Positions 2,098 through 10,291 of a stretch of 64,000 nucleotides of DNA are shown here, piece by piece. A program made the translations under genes and the position numbers. The notes under the pieces are model-generated. The model did not search any database. It saw only the letters and a program-made list of their open reading frames with translations, and was not told the origin of the DNA. Source of the stretch: Thioclava atlantica. GTDB lineage: Bacteria > Pseudomonadota > Alphaproteobacteria > Rhodobacterales > Rhodobacteraceae. The stretch's first letter is position 1. Each line of letters begins with the position of its first letter. The stretch is from NCBI RefSeq assembly GCF_000737065.1, contig NZ_AQRC01000002.1:62001-126000 (forward strand), written 5' to 3'.

Positions 2098-2859
2098 TCA
2101 CGCCCCCTCGCAGATCGTGATTTCGCAGCCCCAATCCGCACAGCGCTTGGCAAGCTCCTCGGGCAGGGGCTTGTCGATGAAGACCCGGTCGATCTCGGAA
2201 AGCGAGGCCAGCCGCACCGGGGCGGTGCGTTCGAGCTTCGAGGCATCGGTCACCAGATAGCGCGTGCGCGCCTGGCGCAGAATCCGCCGGCTGACGCGAA
2301 CCTCCGCCAGGTCGAAATCGAGAAGATCGCCCTCCGCATCGAGCGCCGAGGCCCCGATCACCGCGTAATCGACCTTGAACTCGGCCATGAAATCGGCCGT
2401 CAGATCGCCCACCAGCCCGCCATCCGAGCGCCGCAGATTGCCGCCCGCGACAAGGATGTCGCAGCTTTCATTGGCCATCAGGATATTGGCGACATTGATA
2501 TTATTGGTGACCACGGTGATGTTGCGATGGCCCAGCAGCTCGCGCGCCACCGCCTCGGTCGTGGTTCCGAGATTGAGCACGATCGAGCTGTTATCGGGGA
2601 TCGCCTGCGCGCAGGCCCGGCCGATCGCGGCCTTCGCCGCCTCGTTCATCCGCCGGCGCTCCTCATAGGCGAAATTGACGACGCCGGTGCGGATCACCGC
2701 CCCGCCATGCACCCGTTCGAGATGCCCCGTATCGGCCAGTTCGGAGAGGTCGCGCCGGATCGTCTGCAACGAGACATTGAACCGCGCGGCGAGCTCTTCC
2801 ACGCCCACGCGCCCTTCGTTGCGGGCGATCTCCAGGATTTCGTTCTGTCGGAAATTCAC
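2098..2859 (-). CDS. DeoR/GlpR-family transcriptional regulator
   Basis: The protein is 253 aa with the standard DeoR layout. An N-terminal winged helix (residues 1-57) includes VSLQTIRRDLSEL and the family hallmark HGGAV just after it. A C-terminal sugar-phosphate sensing domain follows, with NLGTTTEAVARELL and VTNNINVANIL. Such repressors usually respond to a phosphorylated sugar or polyol. No sugar-metabolism gene lies beside it, so the target is probably elsewhere or is itself. It is transcribed separately, with 222 bases upstream. Confidence 0.9.
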   Translation of the reverse strand: MNFRQNEILEIARNEGRVGVEELAARFNVSLQTIRRDLSELADTGHLERVHGGAVIRTGVVNFAYEERRRMNEAAKAAIGRACAQAIPDNSSIVLNLGTTTEAVARELLGHRNITVVTNNINVANILMANESCDILVAGGNLRRSDGGLVGDLTADFMAEFKVDYAVIGASALDAEGDLLDFDLAEVRVSRRILRQARTRYLVTDASKLERTAPVRLASLSEIDRVFIDKPLPEELAKRCADWGCEITICEGA

Positions 2860-3081: not shown

Positions 3082-3717
3082 TCATTGCAAGCTGAGATCC
3101 GCAATTCTCGCGCGGATGCGGCTATCGGTATCGTCGCTATCGGCGGAAAGCGCGAGCCCGACGAGGCTGGTGGGCGCGCTCCCGAAGGCCCGACGATAAT
3201 CGCGCGCGAGATCGACCGTCTCGCTATGGCTCCCGGTGCCCGCGGGGCGCAGGATCACCGTCTTGCCGCGCGCACCCAGATAAGGCGAGGGCAGAACCGC
3301 GCCGCGGGCATGGTTGCCGCCCCAGACATACATCAGCACGCGCGCCTCCTCGATCCCGAGAAGCTGTCGGATGCCCGCATTGCGGTTCGCCTCGGCCACG
3401 GCTTTCGGCATGAAGATGAAATAGAGCGACAGGTCGCGATCATCCCCGCCCTTGCGGGTGAGATCGGTGGGCGGGACGCTCTGATCGACCGACCAGCGCC
3501 AGTCGGCCCGGCGCGTGCTCCAATCCGCCCCCGGCAATCTGCGCCAGAGCAGCGAGACCGTGCCATCCGATGCGACCGCCACCTGATCGGAGGATTGCTG
3601 CCACGCATTGCCCGAGAACAGCGAGAAGCGCTGCTCGGTCCAGCTGCCGAACAGCATCGCCTGCGCCCCGGCAGGCAGCAGAATGGCCGCCATCGCGACC
3701 GACAGGGTCTTTCGCAT
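3082..3717 (-). CDS. Exported DUF3047-like protein
   Basis: The 211-aa product starts with a cleavable signal peptide (MRKTLSVAMAAILLPAGAQA) and is predicted periplasmic. Its central part carries the WRWSVDQSVPPTDLTRKGGDDRD-type pattern of DUF3047, continuing to a conserved VWGGN segment. The family has no established function. It stands alone on the minus strand between the guanidine operon end and the DeoR gene, with no visible operon partner. Confidence 0.75.
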   Translation of the reverse strand: MRKTLSVAMAAILLPAGAQAMLFGSWTEQRFSLFSGNAWQQSSDQVAVASDGTVSLLWRRLPGADWSTRRADWRWSVDQSVPPTDLTRKGGDDRDLSLYFIFMPKAVAEANRNAGIRQLLGIEEARVLMYVWGGNHARGAVLPSPYLGARGKTVILRPAGTGSHSETVDLARDYRRAFGSAPTSLVGLALSADSDDTDSRIRARIADLSLQ

Positions 3718-3825: not shown

Positions 3826-3993
3826 TCAGGAAAACCGCGCCTTCCCCAGCGAGACCAGCCCCCAGAAGGCGGCAGCGCCGAGACCGAGCGCGACGACGGT
3901 GCCGATCCCGTGCGGATGCATGTGCCCCCCCGGATGGGCGAGCGCGGGCGAGGCGACGAGCAGGGCTGCGAGGGTCAGGGAGAGAGATTTCAT
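3826..3993 (-). CDS. Small exported His-rich protein, 55 aa
   Basis: The ATG overlaps the stop of the His-rich gene upstream (ATGA), so the two are translationally coupled. The 55-aa product has a signal peptide ending near ALA, then a short HPGGHMHPHG stretch, then one membrane span (GTVVALGLGAAAFWGLVSLG) and a basic tail. It resembles small membrane peptides seen beside nickel enzymes such as urease in Rhodobacterales (DUF6732-like), an assignment from memory of the pattern. A metal-related role at the membrane is inferred from the histidines and neighbours. Confidence 0.65.
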   Translation of the reverse strand: MKSLSLTLAALLVASPALAHPGGHMHPHGIGTVVALGLGAAAFWGLVSLGKARFS

Positions 3994-4454
3994 GTGTCGA
4001 TTTCCTTTTTGCGTTGGAGGAGGAAGTCCCGGATGTCGAGGGCCGATTTCTCGTCCATCGAGACGTAGATCAGCGCCATGTTGGTGCGTTCGCGCACCAT
4101 TTCGCCGGGGAATGGCAGGTAGCTGAGTTCGCGCGAACCGAAGCTCGGCGAGGCGGTGCCCACCTGCCATTCGGTCCGGAGTTCGACATCGACGAGCTTG
4201 AGCGCCTTCGCACCGCCCTGCCCGGGCCGCTCGAACGGCACGCCCGCGAGCTTGAGGTAGCTCGTCTTGTCCGCGGCCTGCACGAAGCCGTCGATGAACT
4301 GCGCGGCGAGCACCTGAAGATCGGCCGCCTCGTCCTCGTGATGCATTTGGCTGTGCAGGTGATCGCCATGGGCATGGTTGTGGCCATGCCCGTGCGGGGC
4401 ATGGTCGTGGTGGTGATGATGGTGGTGGCCATGCGGGCCGTGGTCATGCGGCAT
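3990..4454 (-). CDS. His-rich putative metal-binding protein, candidate nickel chaperone
   Basis: The 154-aa protein opens with an extreme histidine-rich segment: about 20 of the first 39 residues are His, including a run of seven. A compact C-terminal part (residues 45-150) follows, starting LQVLAAQFIDGFVQAADKTSYLKLAGVPF; it has no recognised family. There is no signal peptide, so it is cytoplasmic. It lies 11 bases after the ureohydrolase gene and overlaps the next gene by 4 bases. Cyanobacterial nickel-dependent guanidine hydrolase is matured by HypA/HypB-like proteins, which are absent here, so this protein may store or deliver nickel. That role is inference. Confidence 0.8.
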   Translation of the reverse strand: MPHDHGPHGHHHHHHHDHAPHGHGHNHAHGDHLHSQMHHEDEAADLQVLAAQFIDGFVQAADKTSYLKLAGVPFERPGQGGAKALKLVDVELRTEWQVGTASPSFGSRELSYLPFPGEMVRERTNMALIYVSMDEKSALDIRDFLLQRKKEIDT

Positions 4455-4465
4455 CCTCGCCTCCC

Positions 4466-5737
4466 TCAGATCTTGTGCGGCTCGGGATTGGACCAGCGCT
4501 TGCCCTCGAATTCGCCATGCGGGATCGAGACCGGCTTGTCGATATGGGCCTTGTGCTTGCCCAGCGTCCCGTTCGAGACCATCGCGCCCAGCACATCGAC
4601 GATCACCCGGGTGCCCATCAGCGCGGTGATGTCGGACGTGTCATAGGGCGGCGAGACCTCGACGAGCTCCATCCCGCAGATCCCTTCGGCCGCCACGCCC
4701 GAGGCCAGCGCCAGCGCCTCGCGCGGCAGGAAGCCGCCCGGCTCGGGCCAGCCGGTGCCCGGCACGAAGCCGCAATCGATGCTGTCGATGTCGAAGGACA
4801 TATAGACCATGTCCACCCCGTCCCAGGCCAGTTCGAGCGCCATCTCGATCGTCTTGTCGATGCCCATCTTCTCGACATCGGACATGGTGATGATGTTGGT
4901 CTCGCGTTCGCGCGCGACCTTCACCGCCTCGCGCGGGACCTGCCAGCCGCCGATGCCGATCTGCACGAGGTTCTTCGCCGGCACGTTGGGCAGGTTGGTC
5001 GAGTGGAACCAGGGCGTGGTGTGCATCCGCTCGTCGAGATCCTTCTCCTGGATGTCGGCATGGCGGTCGAAATGCACGATCCCGATCTTCTTCGAGGTGC
5101 ATTCGGCGATGCCCCGCACGCAGGGGAAGCCGATCGAATGGTCGCCGCCGATCATGATCGGCAGCGAGCCGCTCGAATAGACATGGCTGACCGCGCGGCT
5201 GATCTGGTCGAAGCTCTTCTCGATATTGGCGGGGATGGTGAACACGTCGCCCGCGTCGCACAGCGTCATCTGCTCGCGCAGATCGACCCCGATCTCGTAA
5301 TTGTAGGGCGTGTAGAGCGCCGAGATCTTGCGCACGCCCTGCGGCCCGAAGCGGGTGCCGGGGCGGTAGGTGGTGCCGCCGTCGAAGGGGATCCCGAGCA
5401 CGGTCGCGTCGTAATGGGCGACCTCGAGCACATCCTCGACATAGGGCGCCTTGAGGAAGGTGTTGATGCCCGCGTAATGGGGCAACTCGCCGCGCGCGAA
5501 GGTCGGGATCGACTTGTCCTCGATGCTGTCCGCACCGGTCAGGCCCATGCGCAGCGCCCAGCGGCGCTCCTCGTCCCAGCGGCCCTCGGGCAGCTCGCCC
5601 TCCTTCTGCATCGCCTTCCAGCCCTGCAACCGGGTCAGGTCGGGGTGGTGCTGGCGCCGCTCGCGCAGCGCGCGTCGGGCAAGCGCGGCCTGCGGGTGGT
5701 GCGGGTGCGAGCGCCCGCCTGGCAAATCATGGAACAT
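4466..5737 (-). CDS. gdmH: Guanidine hydrolase (ureohydrolase/arginase family)
   Basis: Predicted to hydrolyse guanidine to urea and ammonia using two metal ions in the cytoplasm. The ureohydrolase metal motifs are present: GGDHS (H200), FDRHAD (D224, H226, D228) and FDIDSID (D316, D318). The second motif has Arg where agmatinases usually have Ala (DAHxD); DRHxD with a following LDERMHT is, to my knowledge, typical of the GdmH clade. At about 423 aa it is longer than agmatinases (near 310-320) because of an extended N-terminus. The guanidine-I riboswitch and NitT/TauT-type transporter upstream support guanidine over agmatine. I chose the ATG at 5737 (GGAG six bases upstream); 5749 is an alternative. 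No urease lies nearby. Confidence 0.85.
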   Translation of the reverse strand: MFHDLPGGRSHPHHPQAALARRALRERRQHHPDLTRLQGWKAMQKEGELPEGRWDEERRWALRMGLTGADSIEDKSIPTFARGELPHYAGINTFLKAPYVEDVLEVAHYDATVLGIPFDGGTTYRPGTRFGPQGVRKISALYTPYNYEIGVDLREQMTLCDAGDVFTIPANIEKSFDQISRAVSHVYSSGSLPIMIGGDHSIGFPCVRGIAECTSKKIGIVHFDRHADIQEKDLDERMHTTPWFHSTNLPNVPAKNLVQIGIGGWQVPREAVKVARERETNIITMSDVEKMGIDKTIEMALELAWDGVDMVYMSFDIDSIDCGFVPGTGWPEPGGFLPREALALASGVAAEGICGMELVEVSPPYDTSDITALMGTRVIVDVLGAMVSNGTLGKHKAHIDKPVSIPHGEFEGKRWSNPEPHKI

Positions 5738-5800
5738 CTCTGTCTCCATCCTGTCTCGCCCCGAACGCGCGGGGCTCTTCCTCTGGACCTTGGCGGCGTC

Positions 5801-5829
5801 CCGCGCGCGGGGCCCAGCGGCGCGCGCGG
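5801..5829 (-). other. Intercistronic stem-loop
   Basis: A 9-bp inverted repeat (CCGCGCGCG / CGCGCGCGG, 11-base loop) lies in the 106-base gap between the transporter ATPase and the hydrolase gene. There is no T-run. It may adjust relative expression of the two halves of the operon. Confidence 0.35.
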
Positions 5830-5843
5830 TGAAACGGGGTCTC

Positions 5844-6629
5844 TCAGGCGGGCGACGGCATCGCGGCCGCGGCCAGAGAGGGGATCTTGTCGAGGATGCG
5901 CTGATAGGGCACGCCATGGTCGCGCGCGTCGAAATCAAAGGTGATCGTCGCGCCATAGGCCTCGGGGAAATCGGGATCCCAGCGGGTCTTGTCGAAGACG
6001 AGGACGCGGTCGCCCAGCTTGAACCCCTCGGCCAGATCATGGGTCACCATGAAGACGGTCATCTTCGTCTCGGCGCGCAGATCGGTGAGGAATTCATGCA
6101 TCGAGACGCGGGTGCCGGGATCGAGCGCACCGAAGGGCTCGTCAAGGAGCAGGATGCGCGGGCGGGCATGGAGCGCCTGTCCGATCGCGAGCCGCTGCTG
6201 CATGCCCCCCGAAAGCGTCGCCGGGTAATTGCCCGCGACATGCGCCAGCCCGATCCGTTCGAGCACTTCGTCGGCGCGGCCGCGCGCCGCGCGCAGCTTG
6301 CCGCCCCGGAACCAGCCCCAGCCGGTGGGGAAGCTCTCGGCCGCCACGATATTGTCGCGCACGCTGAGATGCGGAAAGACCGAGTAGCGCTGGAACACGA
6401 CGCCACGCTCGCGCCCGGGTTCGCGTGCGGGGGCCCCGCCGGCCACGGTGATCGTGCCCCGCGTCGGCGTCTCGTCGGCCAGCAGGAGCCGCAGGAAGGT
6501 GGACTTGCCGCAGCCCGAGGCCCCGACGATCGAGACGAACTCACCCTCTTCCACCTCGAGATTGACGCGTTCGAGGATCGGCCGGCGATCGTAGCTCTGA
6601 AAGACGTTGCGCACGCTCACGAAGCTCAT
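5844..6629 (-). CDS. NitT/TauT-type ABC transporter ATPase (guanidine uptake)
   Basis: The 261-aa ATPase has Walker A GASGCGKST at residues 36-44, the signature LSGGMQQR, Walker B ILLLDEPFGALD and the switch histidine in VTHDLAEG. It belongs to the nitrate/sulfonate/taurine class. The first ATG that gives a normal ATPase N-terminus (MSFVSVRNV) overlaps the permease stop by 4 bases. Its C-terminus extends about 40 residues past the core. In Synechocystis an equivalent transporter lies beside the guanidine hydrolase gene, so guanidine is the likely substrate here. Confidence 0.88.
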   Translation of the reverse strand: MSFVSVRNVFQSYDRRPILERVNLEVEEGEFVSIVGASGCGKSTFLRLLLADETPTRGTITVAGGAPAREPGRERGVVFQRYSVFPHLSVRDNIVAAESFPTGWGWFRGGKLRAARGRADEVLERIGLAHVAGNYPATLSGGMQQRLAIGQALHARPRILLLDEPFGALDPGTRVSMHEFLTDLRAETKMTVFMVTHDLAEGFKLGDRVLVFDKTRWDPDFPEAYGATITFDFDARDHGVPYQRILDKIPSLAAAAMPSPA

Positions 6630-7438
6630 AGCCCGCCCTCCATCCAGGGGAAGGCCCGGCGCGCCAGCACCTTGAGCGCATAGTCGATCACGAAGGCCAG
6701 CAGCGTGATCCAGATCACGTAGGTCAGAATGATGTCCATCGCGAGATAGCGCCGCACGAGGAAGATCCGGTAGCCGAGCCCCTGCTCCGCCGCGACCGCC
6801 TCGGCCGCGATCAGGAACAGCCATGCCGCGCCCAGAGACAGCCGCACCCCCGCGATCAGACGCGGCAGGATCTGCGGCAGCACGACGCGCAGCGCGATCA
6901 CCCAGGTCGAGGCCCCGAGCGTCTGCGCCTTGACGATCTCCTCATGCGGGATGTCGAGCACGCGCTGGCTGAGATCGCGGATCAGGAAGGGCGTGATCCC
7001 GATCACGATGAGGACGACCTTCGAGGTCTCGCCCAGCCCGAAGACGATGAAGAGGATCGGCAGCAGCGCCAGCGGCGGAACCATCGAGATCACCGCGACG
7101 AAGCTCGAGAAGCCCCGCCGGACATAGGGCAGAAGCCCGATCCCGACCCCGAGGATCAGCGAGATCAGCGCGCCGCTGCCGACCCCGAGCGCGAGCCGGC
7201 GCAGGCTCGCCCAGGTATCGTGCCAGATCTGGATCTCGCCGCTGCGCTTGTTGGGCTCGGTGAAGAGCCGGATCGCGGTGTCGAGGATCGCGCCCGGCGC
7301 AGGCAGGAGCTTGTCCTGCGGGTTCGCCGCCAGGCGGATCTCGGAGCCGATCGCATAGGCGATCAGGACCACCGCGAAGGGAAGTGCGGCGAGCAAGATC
7401 GCGGTCGGGCGTGAGGGATGTCGGTTGAGAAGACGCAT
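6626..7438 (-). CDS. NitT/TauT-type ABC transporter permease (guanidine uptake)
   Basis: The 270-aa inner-membrane protein has about six spans and the binding-protein-dependent permease EAA-type loop (VKAQTLGASTWVIALRVVLPQILPRLIAG, near residues 170-198) that docks the ATPase. It lies between the binding-protein gene and the ATPase gene, overlapping the latter by 4 bases. Family and order match the nitrate/taurine ABC class. Guanidine as substrate follows from the riboswitch and the hydrolase in the same operon. Confidence 0.88.
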   Translation of the reverse strand: MRLLNRHPSRPTAILLAALPFAVVLIAYAIGSEIRLAANPQDKLLPAPGAILDTAIRLFTEPNKRSGEIQIWHDTWASLRRLALGVGSGALISLILGVGIGLLPYVRRGFSSFVAVISMVPPLALLPILFIVFGLGETSKVVLIVIGITPFLIRDLSQRVLDIPHEEIVKAQTLGASTWVIALRVVLPQILPRLIAGVRLSLGAAWLFLIAAEAVAAEQGLGYRIFLVRRYLAMDIILTYVIWITLLAFVIDYALKVLARRAFPWMEGGL

Positions 7439-7463
7439 GATCTCTTGGCCGAAGGGAAAGCGA

Positions 7464-7484
7464 CCCGGCCGGGGTTCGGCCGGG
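7464..7484 (-). other. Stem-loop between binding-protein and permease genes
   Basis: An 8-bp perfect inverted repeat (CCCGGCCG / CGGCCGGG, 5-base loop) sits in the 56-base gap after the binding-protein stop. Such hairpins often protect the upstream message so that the periplasmic binding protein is made in excess over membrane subunits. That role is inferred. Confidence 0.45.
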
Positions 7485-7494
7485 CGCGATGGGC

Positions 7495-8562
7495 TCAGAG
7501 GCTGCCGTCGGCGGCCATCTGCATGTAGGTCGTGTCGAAGCGCAGCTTCACATTGCCCTTGTCGCCGGCGACCGACCCGTCGGGATATTCGACCCCCACG
7601 AAATCGGCCGAGGGCGCGTCGACCCCGAGGATCCCCTTGTCGAACAGGAAATTCGCGACATGGGTCATGGTCTTGGGCATCTCCGCGCTCGAGGCCTGCG
7701 CGACCGCCTTGGCCGGGTCGTAGAACATCGCGGTCGCGTCGAGCTGCGCCTTGTAGCCCGCAAGATCGGTGCCCGCGGCCTCGGCCATTGCGGTCAGCGC
7801 CTCTTCGTCACCCGCTGCCATCTTGCCCATCACCTCGTACCAGGCCCCCGCGACCGCCTTGCCGAGTTCGGGATTGTCCTTGAGGGTCTCGGTATTGACC
7901 ACCATCAGGTCGAGGATCTCGCCCGGGATCTCGGAGCTGTCGAAGATCTTGTGGGCGTCGGGGTTCGAGGACATGATCTCGGAGACCAGCGGGTTCCAGG
8001 TCACCACCGTCTTCACCTCGGGCGTGGCGAAGGCCGCGATCATGTCGGCATCCGAGGTATTGACGACGCCTGCAAGATCCTTCTCGGCCAGCCCCGCCTT
8101 GTCGAGCGCGCGCGCCAGCAGGTAATGCGAGACCGACAGCTCGACGAGGTTCACCTTGGTGCCCTTGAGTTCGGCCACCGAGGTCGCGTCCTTCGAGATG
8201 ATCGCGTCATTGCCGTTCGAATAGTCGCCCACGATCAGCGCGGTCGTGTCCACGCCGCCGCCCGAGGGGATCGAGAGCGTGTCCATATTGGTCGCGCTCA
8301 CCCCGTCGAAGGCGCCCGCGGTGTATTGGTTGATCGACTCGATGTAGTCGTTGATCTGGACGATATCGACGGTGATGCCGTATTTCTTCGCCCATTTGTC
8401 CATGATCCCCGAGCTCTCGAGATAGCCCCAGGGCATCCAGCCGGCATAGATCGACCAGGCGAGTTTGAAATCGGCCTTCTTCTCGGCCATCGCGGGCGAG
8501 AAGGATGCGGCGAGAACCCCCAGCGAGAGGGCCGTGGCGGACAGGATCTTCGTTCTGGTCAT
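7495..8562 (-). CDS. Periplasmic substrate-binding protein of guanidine ABC transporter
   Basis: The 355-aa protein has a signal peptide (MTRTKILSATALSLGVLAASFSPAMA) followed by an NMT1/SsuA-like binding-protein fold beginning FKLAWSIYAGWMPWGYLESSG. It is the first gene after the guanidine-I riboswitch, so expression should rise with guanidine. The ATG at 8562 has GGGGAAG just upstream; an in-frame ATG six codons earlier is less likely. It should capture the substrate in the periplasm and deliver it to the permease/ATPase pair downstream. Guanidine binding is inferred from context. Confidence 0.87.
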   Translation of the reverse strand: MTRTKILSATALSLGVLAASFSPAMAEKKADFKLAWSIYAGWMPWGYLESSGIMDKWAKKYGITVDIVQINDYIESINQYTAGAFDGVSATNMDTLSIPSGGGVDTTALIVGDYSNGNDAIISKDATSVAELKGTKVNLVELSVSHYLLARALDKAGLAEKDLAGVVNTSDADMIAAFATPEVKTVVTWNPLVSEIMSSNPDAHKIFDSSEIPGEILDLMVVNTETLKDNPELGKAVAGAWYEVMGKMAAGDEEALTAMAEAAGTDLAGYKAQLDATAMFYDPAKAVAQASSAEMPKTMTHVANFLFDKGILGVDAPSADFVGVEYPDGSVAGDKGNVKLRFDTTYMQMAADGSL

Positions 8563-8659
8563 GGTCTTCCCCGTTGGCAACGTCCCGCCCGTATCATGGC
8601 GTTGAGGCCGGCCCGCTGGCGGAACAAAGAGACGAGGCGCGGGTCAGACCTGCGCAGTA

Positions 8660-8762
8660 CTCTCCCGGGATTTTGGCCCGCCGTGTGCCCGAGGCGGAAT
8701 TTGCCGCCCGGGTGGCGCTTCTCGGACCAGACCTGCCATTCGCGGCAACGGAACCCTAAGCG
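8660..8762 (-). promoter_or_regulatory. Guanidine-I (ykkC) riboswitch
   Basis: Read on the minus strand, the conserved blocks of the ykkC class occur in order: TTAGGGTTCCG (8760-8750), CTGGTCCGAGA (8730-8720), GGGCACACGGCGGG (8690-8677) and AAAATCCCGGGAGAG (8674-8660). They are separated by pairable arms such as GGGCGG with CCGCC-type partners. The element ends about 98 bases before the binding-protein ATG. This class binds guanidinium and usually turns on guanidine export or degradation genes. The expression platform is not resolved: a small CGTT/AACG hairpin lies directly before the ribosome site, but no clear terminator with a T-run was found. Confidence 0.93.
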
Positions 8763-9016
8763 CCCTGCCCCTCCATCAAAGGCACGCCACCCGTTTGCGC
8801 CAAGGGGGGCGCGGAGAAACGGCCGGTTCAAACGGCAATTGCCCACGAATTAATCACGAATTCGGAGCCGCTGACCAATCCTTCCGCGCAAGAAACGGCC
8901 CGGCGGGGCGCGTGCCCCGGACTCACCCCCCCGCGCGGTCTGCCTCGCAAAGCGATCCGCGATCCGGTTCGGCGCGTAGCCTCGGGAGGCGATTGACCAG
9001 AGAGGGCCGCGAGACG
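8763..9016. other. Divergent intergenic region upstream of riboswitch and MFS gene
   Basis: No gene was found in these 254 bases. The region must contain the minus-strand promoter of the guanidine operon and the plus-strand promoter of the MFS gene. The only AT-rich patch is at 8836-8863. It contains the 8-base direct repeat CACGAATT (8844-8851 and 8855-8862), spaced 11 bases start to start, about one helical turn, which may bind a regulator. Confidence 0.4.
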
Positions 9017-10291
9017 ATGACCGCATGTTCCGGGACGCCCCAAGGGCAAAGCGAGCGGCGCCTGCCCTATTGGCGGGTGAGCCTTGTCGCGCTCACCCTC
9101 GCCGCGGCGGGGCTTCCGATCTATATCCACCTGCCGCGCTTCGCGGTGACCGAACTCGGGCTGGGCCTCGGGCAGGTCGGCGCGGTCCTGATCGCGATCC
9201 GCATCGTCGATTTCGCGCAGGACCCGGCGCTCGGCTGGATGATCGACCGCTGGCCGGACCGGCGCGGGCAATTCGCCGGCCTCGCCCTTCTGCTGCTCGG
9301 AGCGGGTTTCGCGATGCTGTTTGCGCTGCCCGCCCCCTTGGCGCCCGCGCTCTGGCTGAGCGGGACGCTGCTTCTGCTCTTCACCGGCTACAGCCTCGGG
9401 ACGATCCTGCTCTACGGCCAGAGCACCGCGCTCGCCGGTTCGGCCCCCGCCGCCCAGTACCGGCTGGCGAGCTGGCGCGAGGCGGGCCTCCTTGCGGGCG
9501 TGATCCTGGCCGCCGCGGCCCCCGTCGCCTTCGCGCAGATCTTGCCTGCGCGGGGTGGTTATGCGGGTTTCGGCTGGGCCGTCGCCGCGCTGGCCATCCT
9601 GAGCGCGCTCCTCTCGCGCCCGGTCTGGGGCCTGTCCGCGCCCACCGCCCGCCGCCCGCGCCTGCGCGACTTCCTCTCGGGCGCGGCAGGGCGTCTGCTG
9701 GGGCTCGCCTTCGTCAACGCCTTGCCCGTCGCGGTCACCTCGACCCTCTTTCTCTTCTTCGTCGAGGACCGGCTGGAGCTGCCAGGGCTGGCCGGCCCCT
9801 TCCTGATCCTGTTCTTCGCCGCCGCCGGGCTGAGCGCGCCGCTCTGGAGCCGTCTCGCCGGCCGTTTCGGTGCCCGACGCGTCCTGCTCGCCGCGATGGT
9901 CCTCTCCATCGCGAGCTTCATCGGCGCGGCTGTCCTGCCAAAGGGCGCGGCGCTCGGTTTCGCAGCGATCTGTCTGGGTTCGGGGGTCGCGCTCGGCGCG
10001 GATATGGTGATCCTGCCCGCGCTCTTCGCCTCGGCGCTCGGCCGTGCCGGTCTGCGGGCCGGGCAGGCGTTCGGGATCTGGAGTTTCGCCGCCAAGCTCG
10101 CACTCGCGCTCGCCGCCGGGGTGGTCTTGCCGCTGCTGCAGCAGGCGGGCTTCACCCCCGGCGCGGAAAACAGCCCCGCCGCGCTCACGGCGCTAACCCT
10201 TGCCTATGCGCTCCTGCCCTGCGGGCTCAAACTCATTGCACTCGCGATGGTCTTCGCCCTGCCCCGCGAGTTTGCCGAGGGACAGGGCTGA
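9017..10291 (+). CDS. MFS transporter
   Basis: The 424-aa integral membrane protein has about 12 hydrophobic spans, with a sugar/cation-symporter-like N-terminus (PRFAVTELGLGLGQVGAVLIAIRIVDFAQDPALGWMIDRW). The start is the ATG at 9017, preceded by GAGAGG; the long upstream extension has no membrane or motif content and is rejected. It is divergent from the guanidine operon and could export or import a related compound. Nothing in the sequence identifies the substrate. Confidence 0.8.
   Translation: MTACSGTPQGQSERRLPYWRVSLVALTLAAAGLPIYIHLPRFAVTELGLGLGQVGAVLIAIRIVDFAQDPALGWMIDRWPDRRGQFAGLALLLLGAGFAMLFALPAPLAPALWLSGTLLLLFTGYSLGTILLYGQSTALAGSAPAAQYRLASWREAGLLAGVILAAAAPVAFAQILPARGGYAGFGWAVAALAILSALLSRPVWGLSAPTARRPRLRDFLSGAAGRLLGLAFVNALPVAVTSTLFLFFVEDRLELPGLAGPFLILFFAAAGLSAPLWSRLAGRFGARRVLLAAMVLSIASFIGAAVLPKGAALGFAAICLGSGVALGADMVILPALFASALGRAGLRAGQAFGIWSFAAKLALALAAGVVLPLLQQAGFTPGAENSPAALTALTLAYALLPCGLKLIALAMVFALPREFAEGQG

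Follow-up and report, generated by a model that had tools for sequence, protein, structure and literature searches.

A guanidine-I riboswitch operon of Thioclava atlantica encodes a predicted guanidine hydrolase and a histidine-tailed candidate nickel-delivery protein

Analogues of the Synechocystis protein Sll1077 are found under the control of guanidine riboswitches in a wide range of microbes, and such operons often hold genes of the SsuA type, for a permease and of the NrtD/SsuB type (PMC8390497; this and the following papers are cited for their passages on these operons and enzymes). The gdmH (sll1077) operon of Synechocystis PCC 6803 comprises a guanidine-I riboswitch, an SsuA/permease/NrtD-type importer and the guanidine hydrolase GdmH (PMC8390497, PMC12186494). 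GdmH is nickel-dependent, and the Synechocystis operon holds two nickel-loading accessory proteins (PMC12186494). In picocyanobacteria, hypA and hypB homologues occur in the same cluster (PMC10119275), and activation of metformin hydrolase needs HypA and HypB (PMC11399263). Nickel accessory proteins or HypA/HypB are thus described as co-encoded with GdmH and MefH and as needed for activity (PMC12186494, PMC11399263). For the comammox guanidinase, nickel loading was called unclear; the relevant passages report that no nickel-loading protein was found and that an under-loaded enzyme was suspected (PMC11410670). Here, we describe an operon in a 64,000-nucleotide stretch of Thioclava atlantica (assembly GCF_000737065.1, contig NZ_AQRC01000002.1, positions 62,001-126,000 of the forward strand; hereafter the window, to which all coordinates of this operon refer), in which a guanidine-I riboswitch, an ATP-binding cassette (ABC) importer and a predicted GdmH are joined by a small protein with a histidine (His)-rich tail.

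The operon is a single minus-strand unit (8770-3990) with the order riboswitch, binding protein, permease, ATPase, ureohydrolase and small His-rich protein. The original prediction had placed it at 4466-8762. The operon is real, but its riboswitch ends at 8770 and its genes run past 4466, since a conserved fifth gene (3990-4454, minus strand) had been overlooked. This gene, which starts 11 bases past the stop codon of the ureohydrolase gene, forms part of the operon. Its product of 154 residues, hereafter the partner, is a candidate nickel-delivery protein of GdmH by its linkage to and co-occurrence with gdmH. Whereas the Synechocystis operon carries hypA and hypB homologues, neither stands beside gdmH in the window, and the His-tailed protein is found instead. 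The reading that we regard as quite probable is that of a guanidine-induced uptake-and-hydrolysis operon whose His-tailed partner delivers nickel to GdmH.

The linkage of the fifth gene to gdmH is tight. It lies downstream of gdmH in 105 of the 107 fetched loci, a set that counts the window and in which some genomes occur twice, and the other two (L028 and L078) end before that point; among the named loci alone, the count is 79 of 80. In 92 of the 105 loci, the start chosen for the fifth gene is at most 18 bases from the gdmH stop or overlaps with it. A gap of 33-433 bases was measured in ten loci, and the values for L033, L086 and L095 are stop-finding artefacts. In an order-wide sample, 27 of the 292 genomes searched for gdmH contain it, and 27 of the 284 searched for the fifth gene contain that gene, 26 genomes being shared by the two sets; as for the extras, the fifth-gene match of G012 covers only 34 model positions (33 bits), and the locus of G290, which has gdmH, is truncated where its contig ends. 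A class-wide sample gave the fifth gene for 13 genomes out of 385 and gdmH for 11 out of 372, all 11 of the GdmH-positive genomes carrying the fifth gene. A stop codon interrupts the fifth-gene match of G415, which has no operon genes around it, and in G652 a binding-protein fragment continues directly into the fifth gene, the intervening genes being absent, so that both look like remnants. In addition, diverged copies (25-36% identity) lie near gdmH in three further genomes of a phylum sample, and all seven alphaproteobacterial gdmH records among plasmids carry the fifth gene, within about 150 bases. Overall, the fifth gene tracks gdmH in eleven alphaproteobacterial families. Co-occurrence is given here as raw counts from mixed samples that include kin genomes, and outside the Alphaproteobacteria the domain searches covered the plasmid collection. 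Separately, locus L131 (7269-7900) joins a binding-protein fragment to the partner domain, which is read in a different frame and is followed by a His-rich stretch; this arrangement may be a deletion remnant or an assembly error.

The nickel proteins of the cyanobacterial operons show a different distribution. HypA scores over its cut-off in 8 of 39 GdmH-positive genomes (partially in G414; G035 has one further, sub-threshold match) and HypB in 7 of the 39, and by coordinates neither ever stands beside gdmH in these genomes. The sub-threshold HypB matches in the remaining genomes are probably UreG and its relatives. No HypA or HypB homologue is present in the window operon; the genome has its own copies on contig C5, and gdmH lies on C2.

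The partner contains 20 His residues, all of them within residues 1-45 (4320-4454, minus strand); no His follows residue 45, and the protein has no cysteine (Cys). Five tail columns (H25, H27, H32, H34 and H36) are conserved to at least 90% in 78 rows, the window protein having Gln at position 36, and the tails hold between 5 and 28 His across the 105 sequences measured. Conservation extends into the domain behind the tail, where ten columns (F53, F57, D62, A70, L87, G99, P103, Y112, P116 and Y130) are invariant in 28 diverse members, nine of them holding in 40 sequences. Locus L130 (7141-7473) keeps the domain with one His in a genome (G416) that has no HypA match, showing that the tail can be lost. 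These invariant domain columns, and the retention of the domain where the tail is nearly lost, are the grounds on which a docking domain with a nickel-collecting tail is proposed.

Variable tails would also suit a protein that is only a nickel buffer or store, beside a guanidine route of the known kind and with no direct delivery to GdmH. This explanation leans on likeness, metal-storage tails being known to be His-rich, and it can call on the HupE/UreJ genes that follow the partner in three loci. However, the conserved part of the protein is the domain with its ten invariant columns, which persists in L130, and the GdmH-negative sampled genomes yielded only short or remnant-like matches (G415, G652 and G012), which is unexpected for a general nickel store. 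We therefore regard a mere buffer or store as unlikely. The same centring of conservation on the domain, together with the tight gdmH linkage and the near loss of the tail in one genome, would fit a structural or regulatory subunit of GdmH for which the His tail is secondary, and the related metformin hydrolase requires its second subunit (PMC11399263). On the other hand, the Nitrospira inopinata enzyme is reported to be a homohexamer similar to that of Synechocystis (PMC11410670), at least five His are present in the tail of every one of the 105 copies measured, and the HupE/UreJ genes adjoin in the three loci; a subunit role is in our view also unlikely, slightly more so than a store.

UreE and other His-rich nickel chaperones have a His-rich tail by a small domain and are encoded with their nickel enzyme. 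The partner is like them in layout, but no known family could be assigned to it. The window protein matched no Pfam or NCBIfam family, including the models of HypA, HypB and UreE, PHROGs returned nothing, and a profile search of the PDB gave no match at E ≤0.05; a known family was rejected on the outcome of these sequence searches. Its relatives gave weak matches. Among 78 of them, five resembled viral movement protein, one ZIP and one RlmM (best E 0.0049), and among the 28 diverse relatives, a nickel/cobalt efflux transporter model was matched by two (best E 1.3e-5) and three other models, including UreE at E 0.094, by one each. These scattered matches are read as tail-driven. In two AlphaFold models, the domain is mostly confident, with two helices, five to six strands and a last helix (mean predicted local distance difference test score of 71-97 in domain blocks), and the tail is of low confidence and looks disordered (about 43-52). 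A Foldseek comparison of both models with the PDB found nothing at E ≤0.001, the best matches being COMMD-type proteins at E 0.33 and 0.21. No signal peptide was seen by eye, and the partner is probably cytosolic. An annotated relative is filed as a 'hypothetical protein'. Among the papers listed by literature searches, none was on the fifth gene; an earlier mention is possible, for instance by Funck et al. in 2022, who are said to have discovered GdmH.

A further pointer to nickel comes from the neighbours of the partner. In the operons of MefH and DmgH, a nickel ureohydrolase is encoded together with nickel accessory proteins and a homologue of HupE (PMC11399263), and a HupE/UreJ gene directly follows the partner in three loci, L158 (Sinorhizobium fredii SMH12), L165 (NGR234) and L141; the Pfam E-values are 4.4e-46 for L158 and 7.7e-50 for L141, and the L165 product is 79% identical to that of L158. 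The MefH/DmgH systems differ in having a two-subunit enzyme with HypA/HypB chaperones, and their similarity to the window enzyme is low (at most 135 bits). The megaplasmids of S. fredii SMH12 and NGR234 were themselves seen to hold the riboswitch, gdmH, a diverged His-tailed partner and the HupE/UreJ gene, so that the use of guanidine may be of importance in nodules or soil.

Several observations weigh against nickel delivery by the partner. Among the 154 fetched gdmH loci, of which many are short or duplicates, the HupE/UreJ gene occurs at only three distinct places, and the support it lends is correspondingly narrow. His-rich tails bind zinc, copper and cobalt as well as nickel. Seven partner-bearing genomes, that of T. 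atlantica included, encode both HypA and HypB elsewhere, and urease accessory proteins could serve GdmH as well. Few His residues are left in L130 (one), L128 (five) and L129 (four), and nickel collection by the tail is thus not the whole story there. The domain of the window protein has neither His nor Cys and no fold match that points to a function. Finally, no partner was found in the 14-15 kb read at four actinobacterial plasmid loci of the GdmH clade, so that it is not needed everywhere. Considering both sides, a nickel role of some kind for the fifth protein is reasonably likely. That it founds a new, enzyme-specific family of nickel metallochaperones, in which a GdmH-docking domain with an interchangeable His tail replaces the GTPase-based HypA/HypB system in Alphaproteobacteria, has in our estimation a little more than an even chance.

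The enzyme that the partner would serve is encoded by gdmH (4466-5749, minus strand; an alternative inner ATG is possible at 5737). The protein of 427 residues matches PF00491 with 258 bits and has the motifs GGDHS, DRHAD and SFDIDSID, of which the original prediction had named DRHAD as a metal motif of a ureohydrolase. The best PDB sequences are 7esr from Synechocystis (550 bits) and 9fek from N. inopinata (537 bits), which we take to be GdmH on the strength of PMC11410670, their PDB titles being agmatinase 2. The next chain, a guanidinobutyrase, reaches 175 bits, metformin hydrolase chains at most 135 and chains named agmatinase at most 131. Guanidine specificity is set by Thr97 and Trp305 (PMC11410670), whose equivalents in the window protein are T127 and W334, with the Synechocystis numbering fitted via the Trp and the PDB chain taken as offset by two. 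The motifs GTTYR and WPEPGG are kept in the window, in all 17 relatives' loci and in all 14 other alphaproteobacterial rows, and GTTYR occurs in none of the five ureohydrolase paralogues of the same genome. Among the four actinobacterial rows, GTTYR is missing in L154 and L155, and Thr replaces Trp in L156; not every member of the wider clade therefore has both specificity residues.

In a maximum-likelihood tree of 46 rows, which carries a long-branch warning, the window enzyme groups with those of Synechocystis (7esr/7oi1) and N. inopinata (9fek) and with the actinobacterial rows against eight other ureohydrolases, with support of 100/99. This is the placement that the proposed comparison with Sll1077 had looked for; the eight outside sequences are a guanidinobutyrase, a guanidinopropionase, a proclavaminate amidinohydrolase and the five own-genome paralogues, and hold no characterised agmatinase. 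The best named relatives belong to Thioclava (93% identity; the listing may omit very near genomes). Relatives are annotated as 'agmatinase family protein'. The expected mislabelling as agmatinase is thus borne out for the relatives, but the window protein falls below both NCBIfam agmatinase cut-offs. An agmatinase identity is disfavoured by the scores, by T127 and W334 and by the tree, with the composition just given. Nickel-dependent hydrolysis of guanidine is accordingly a prediction from residues and clade membership. Since ureohydrolases are often misnamed, another guanidino compound (agmatine, methylguanidine or dimethylguanidine) might be the substrate, guanidine being only the inducer, and the authors who measured a Km of 13.6 mM for the N. 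inopinata guanidinase discuss such a possibility (PMC11410670). The match of T127 and W334 to the guanidine-specificity residues, the distance in score between the GdmH chains and all others, and the presence of the guanidine-I riboswitch in 37 of 39 genomes make this very improbable.

The riboswitch (8660-8770, minus strand) was called a ykkC element at the head of the operon, and the Rfam guanidine-I covariance model (RF00442) agrees, matching over its full length (window 8770-8660, model positions 1-107 of 107) with 82.0 bits against a gathering threshold of 63 (E 4.5e-13), which rules out chance similarity. It is the sole gathering-level Rfam match in the 64 kb and the sole RF00442 match in the 3.93 Mb genome. 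Among the 39 GdmH-positive genomes, the 37 with a match include 36 over the gathering threshold, and none was found in G386 and G604. Of the 37 matches, 36 share a contig with gdmH: 35 precede it by about 2.7-3.0 kb and that of G747 by 0.14 kb. The match of G438 is on a different contig. All eight named loci scanned were positive, and of ten other loci scanned, L153, L157, L158 and L165 were positive and L125, L127, L133, L154, L155 and L156 gave no match. A simple scan of 8400-9000 found no terminator- or promoter-like sites, and the fold energy of the leader is not unusual (z 1.11). From its model match, the element may be expected to bind guanidine and to switch expression of the operon. 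In G228 (contig C11, 33894-34002), a second guanidine-I riboswitch (70 bits) was noted at a distance from gdmH.

Downstream on the same strand follow the three genes of an importer that had been described as of NitT/TauT type. The presumed guanidine-binding substrate-binding protein (7495-8562, minus strand) passes TIGR03427 with 519 bits against a cut-off of 334. This model is named as a putative urea transporter component and presumably belongs with urea/guanidine carboxylase loci, and a relative of the binding protein is annotated as 'putative urea ABC transporter substrate-binding protein'. The permease (6626-7438, minus strand) matches PF00528 with 77 bits, and its best NCBIfam match, TauC, is below that family's cut-off. 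The ATPase (5844-6629, minus strand), whose start overlaps the permease stop as ATGA, matches PF00005 with 114 bits, and among the 25 NCBIfam ABC ATPase matches listed for it, all are below their cut-offs. Importer and gdmH stand together throughout the 80 named loci with few exceptions, and also in nine further alphaproteobacterial families; a tenth has gdmH without the importer. This recurrence is more than chance. The importer is slightly less constant at gdmH loci than the fifth gene. The stretch fetched for L102 lacks the permease and the binding protein and shows an ATPase match of only 35%, the binding protein was undetected in L055 and L075 (the L075 contig starts within the permease), and no close importer homologue was found at L140 (G747), where the riboswitch lies 0.14 kb before gdmH. 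At L102 and L140, the partner adjoins gdmH although no such importer genes were found beside the pair.

Other guanidine loci differ in their transport and in their enzymes. The N. inopinata locus has the guanidine-I riboswitch and an enzyme of the GdmH clade as in the window, but an APC permease instead of the ABC importer, and its authors report in the relevant passages that they found no nickel chaperone (PMC11410670). Locus L153 (Rubrobacter indicoceani plasmid, 6250-9229) shows guanidine-I directly before a GdmH-clade gene, which is followed by a gene for a sodium:solute symporter and, after that, by a urease cluster; the symporter may represent a third kind of importer next to the ABC and APC types, and no His-tailed partner was found there. 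Guanidine carboxylase operons such as those of Raoultella and Klebsiella share the guanidine-I riboswitch and an ABC guanidine importer with the window (PMC12186494), but hold a carboxylase, a deiminase and an allophanate hydrolase. The urea/guanidine carboxylase model TIGR02712 is over its cut-off in none of the 39 GdmH-positive genomes, and among its matches listed, the sub-threshold ones cover roughly the first 440-520 positions of the 1201-position model; a carboxyguanidine route in the same genome was rejected on this count. Urease alpha is present in all 39 GdmH-positive alphaproteobacterial genomes examined, this one included, and in G386 the binding-protein match has a urease match about 3.4 kb upstream of it on its contig. 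Together, the urease, riboswitch and carboxylase counts support a route of import, hydrolysis to urea and then urease, which we hold to be highly probable. The original prediction of an uptake-and-hydrolysis route distinct from the carboxyguanidine pathway is upheld by these counts, and its comparison with cyanobacteria, said to pair a similar transporter with the hydrolase, accords with the Sll1077-type operons (PMC8390497). The combination of riboswitch, importer and GdmH is therefore of an already known kind and is not new.

Beyond the five operon genes, the 80 named loci share no conserved flanks. The largest extra neighbour cluster, present in 28 of the 80, resembles ABC-type ATPases at scattered places, and the next is present in 8, a pattern that would be expected of a unit moving from site to site. 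In the window, a DUF3047 protein (3082-3717, minus strand) is encoded on the same strand just downstream of the operon, and a DeoR/GlpR-type regulator (2098-2859, minus strand), also downstream, looks unrelated.

In the mechanism that we propose from these parts, guanidine would bind the riboswitch and the operon would be expressed. The NitT/TauT-type ABC importer would bring guanidine into the cell, GdmH as a nickel ureohydrolase would split it into urea and ammonium, and urease, encoded elsewhere in the genome, would break down the urea. The tail of the partner would most likely collect Ni(II), and its domain may dock on GdmH or on a folding intermediate of it and load the active site, thereby doing the job of the cyanobacterial HypA/HypB homologues.

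In the annotated relative, such an operon is obscured by the labels 'agmatinase family protein', 'putative urea' and 'hypothetical protein', and guanidine use concerns roughly one in ten of the genomes sampled in the order (27 of 292). The literature passages considered account for the nickel supply only in systems that co-encode HypA/HypB homologues. A partner that tracks gdmH in eleven families, with HypA in only 8 of 39 genomes, makes the nickel question directly testable, and the His-tailed partner represents a new candidate family for nickel delivery. If this holds true, a nickel ureohydrolase would be matured without a dedicated nucleoside triphosphatase.

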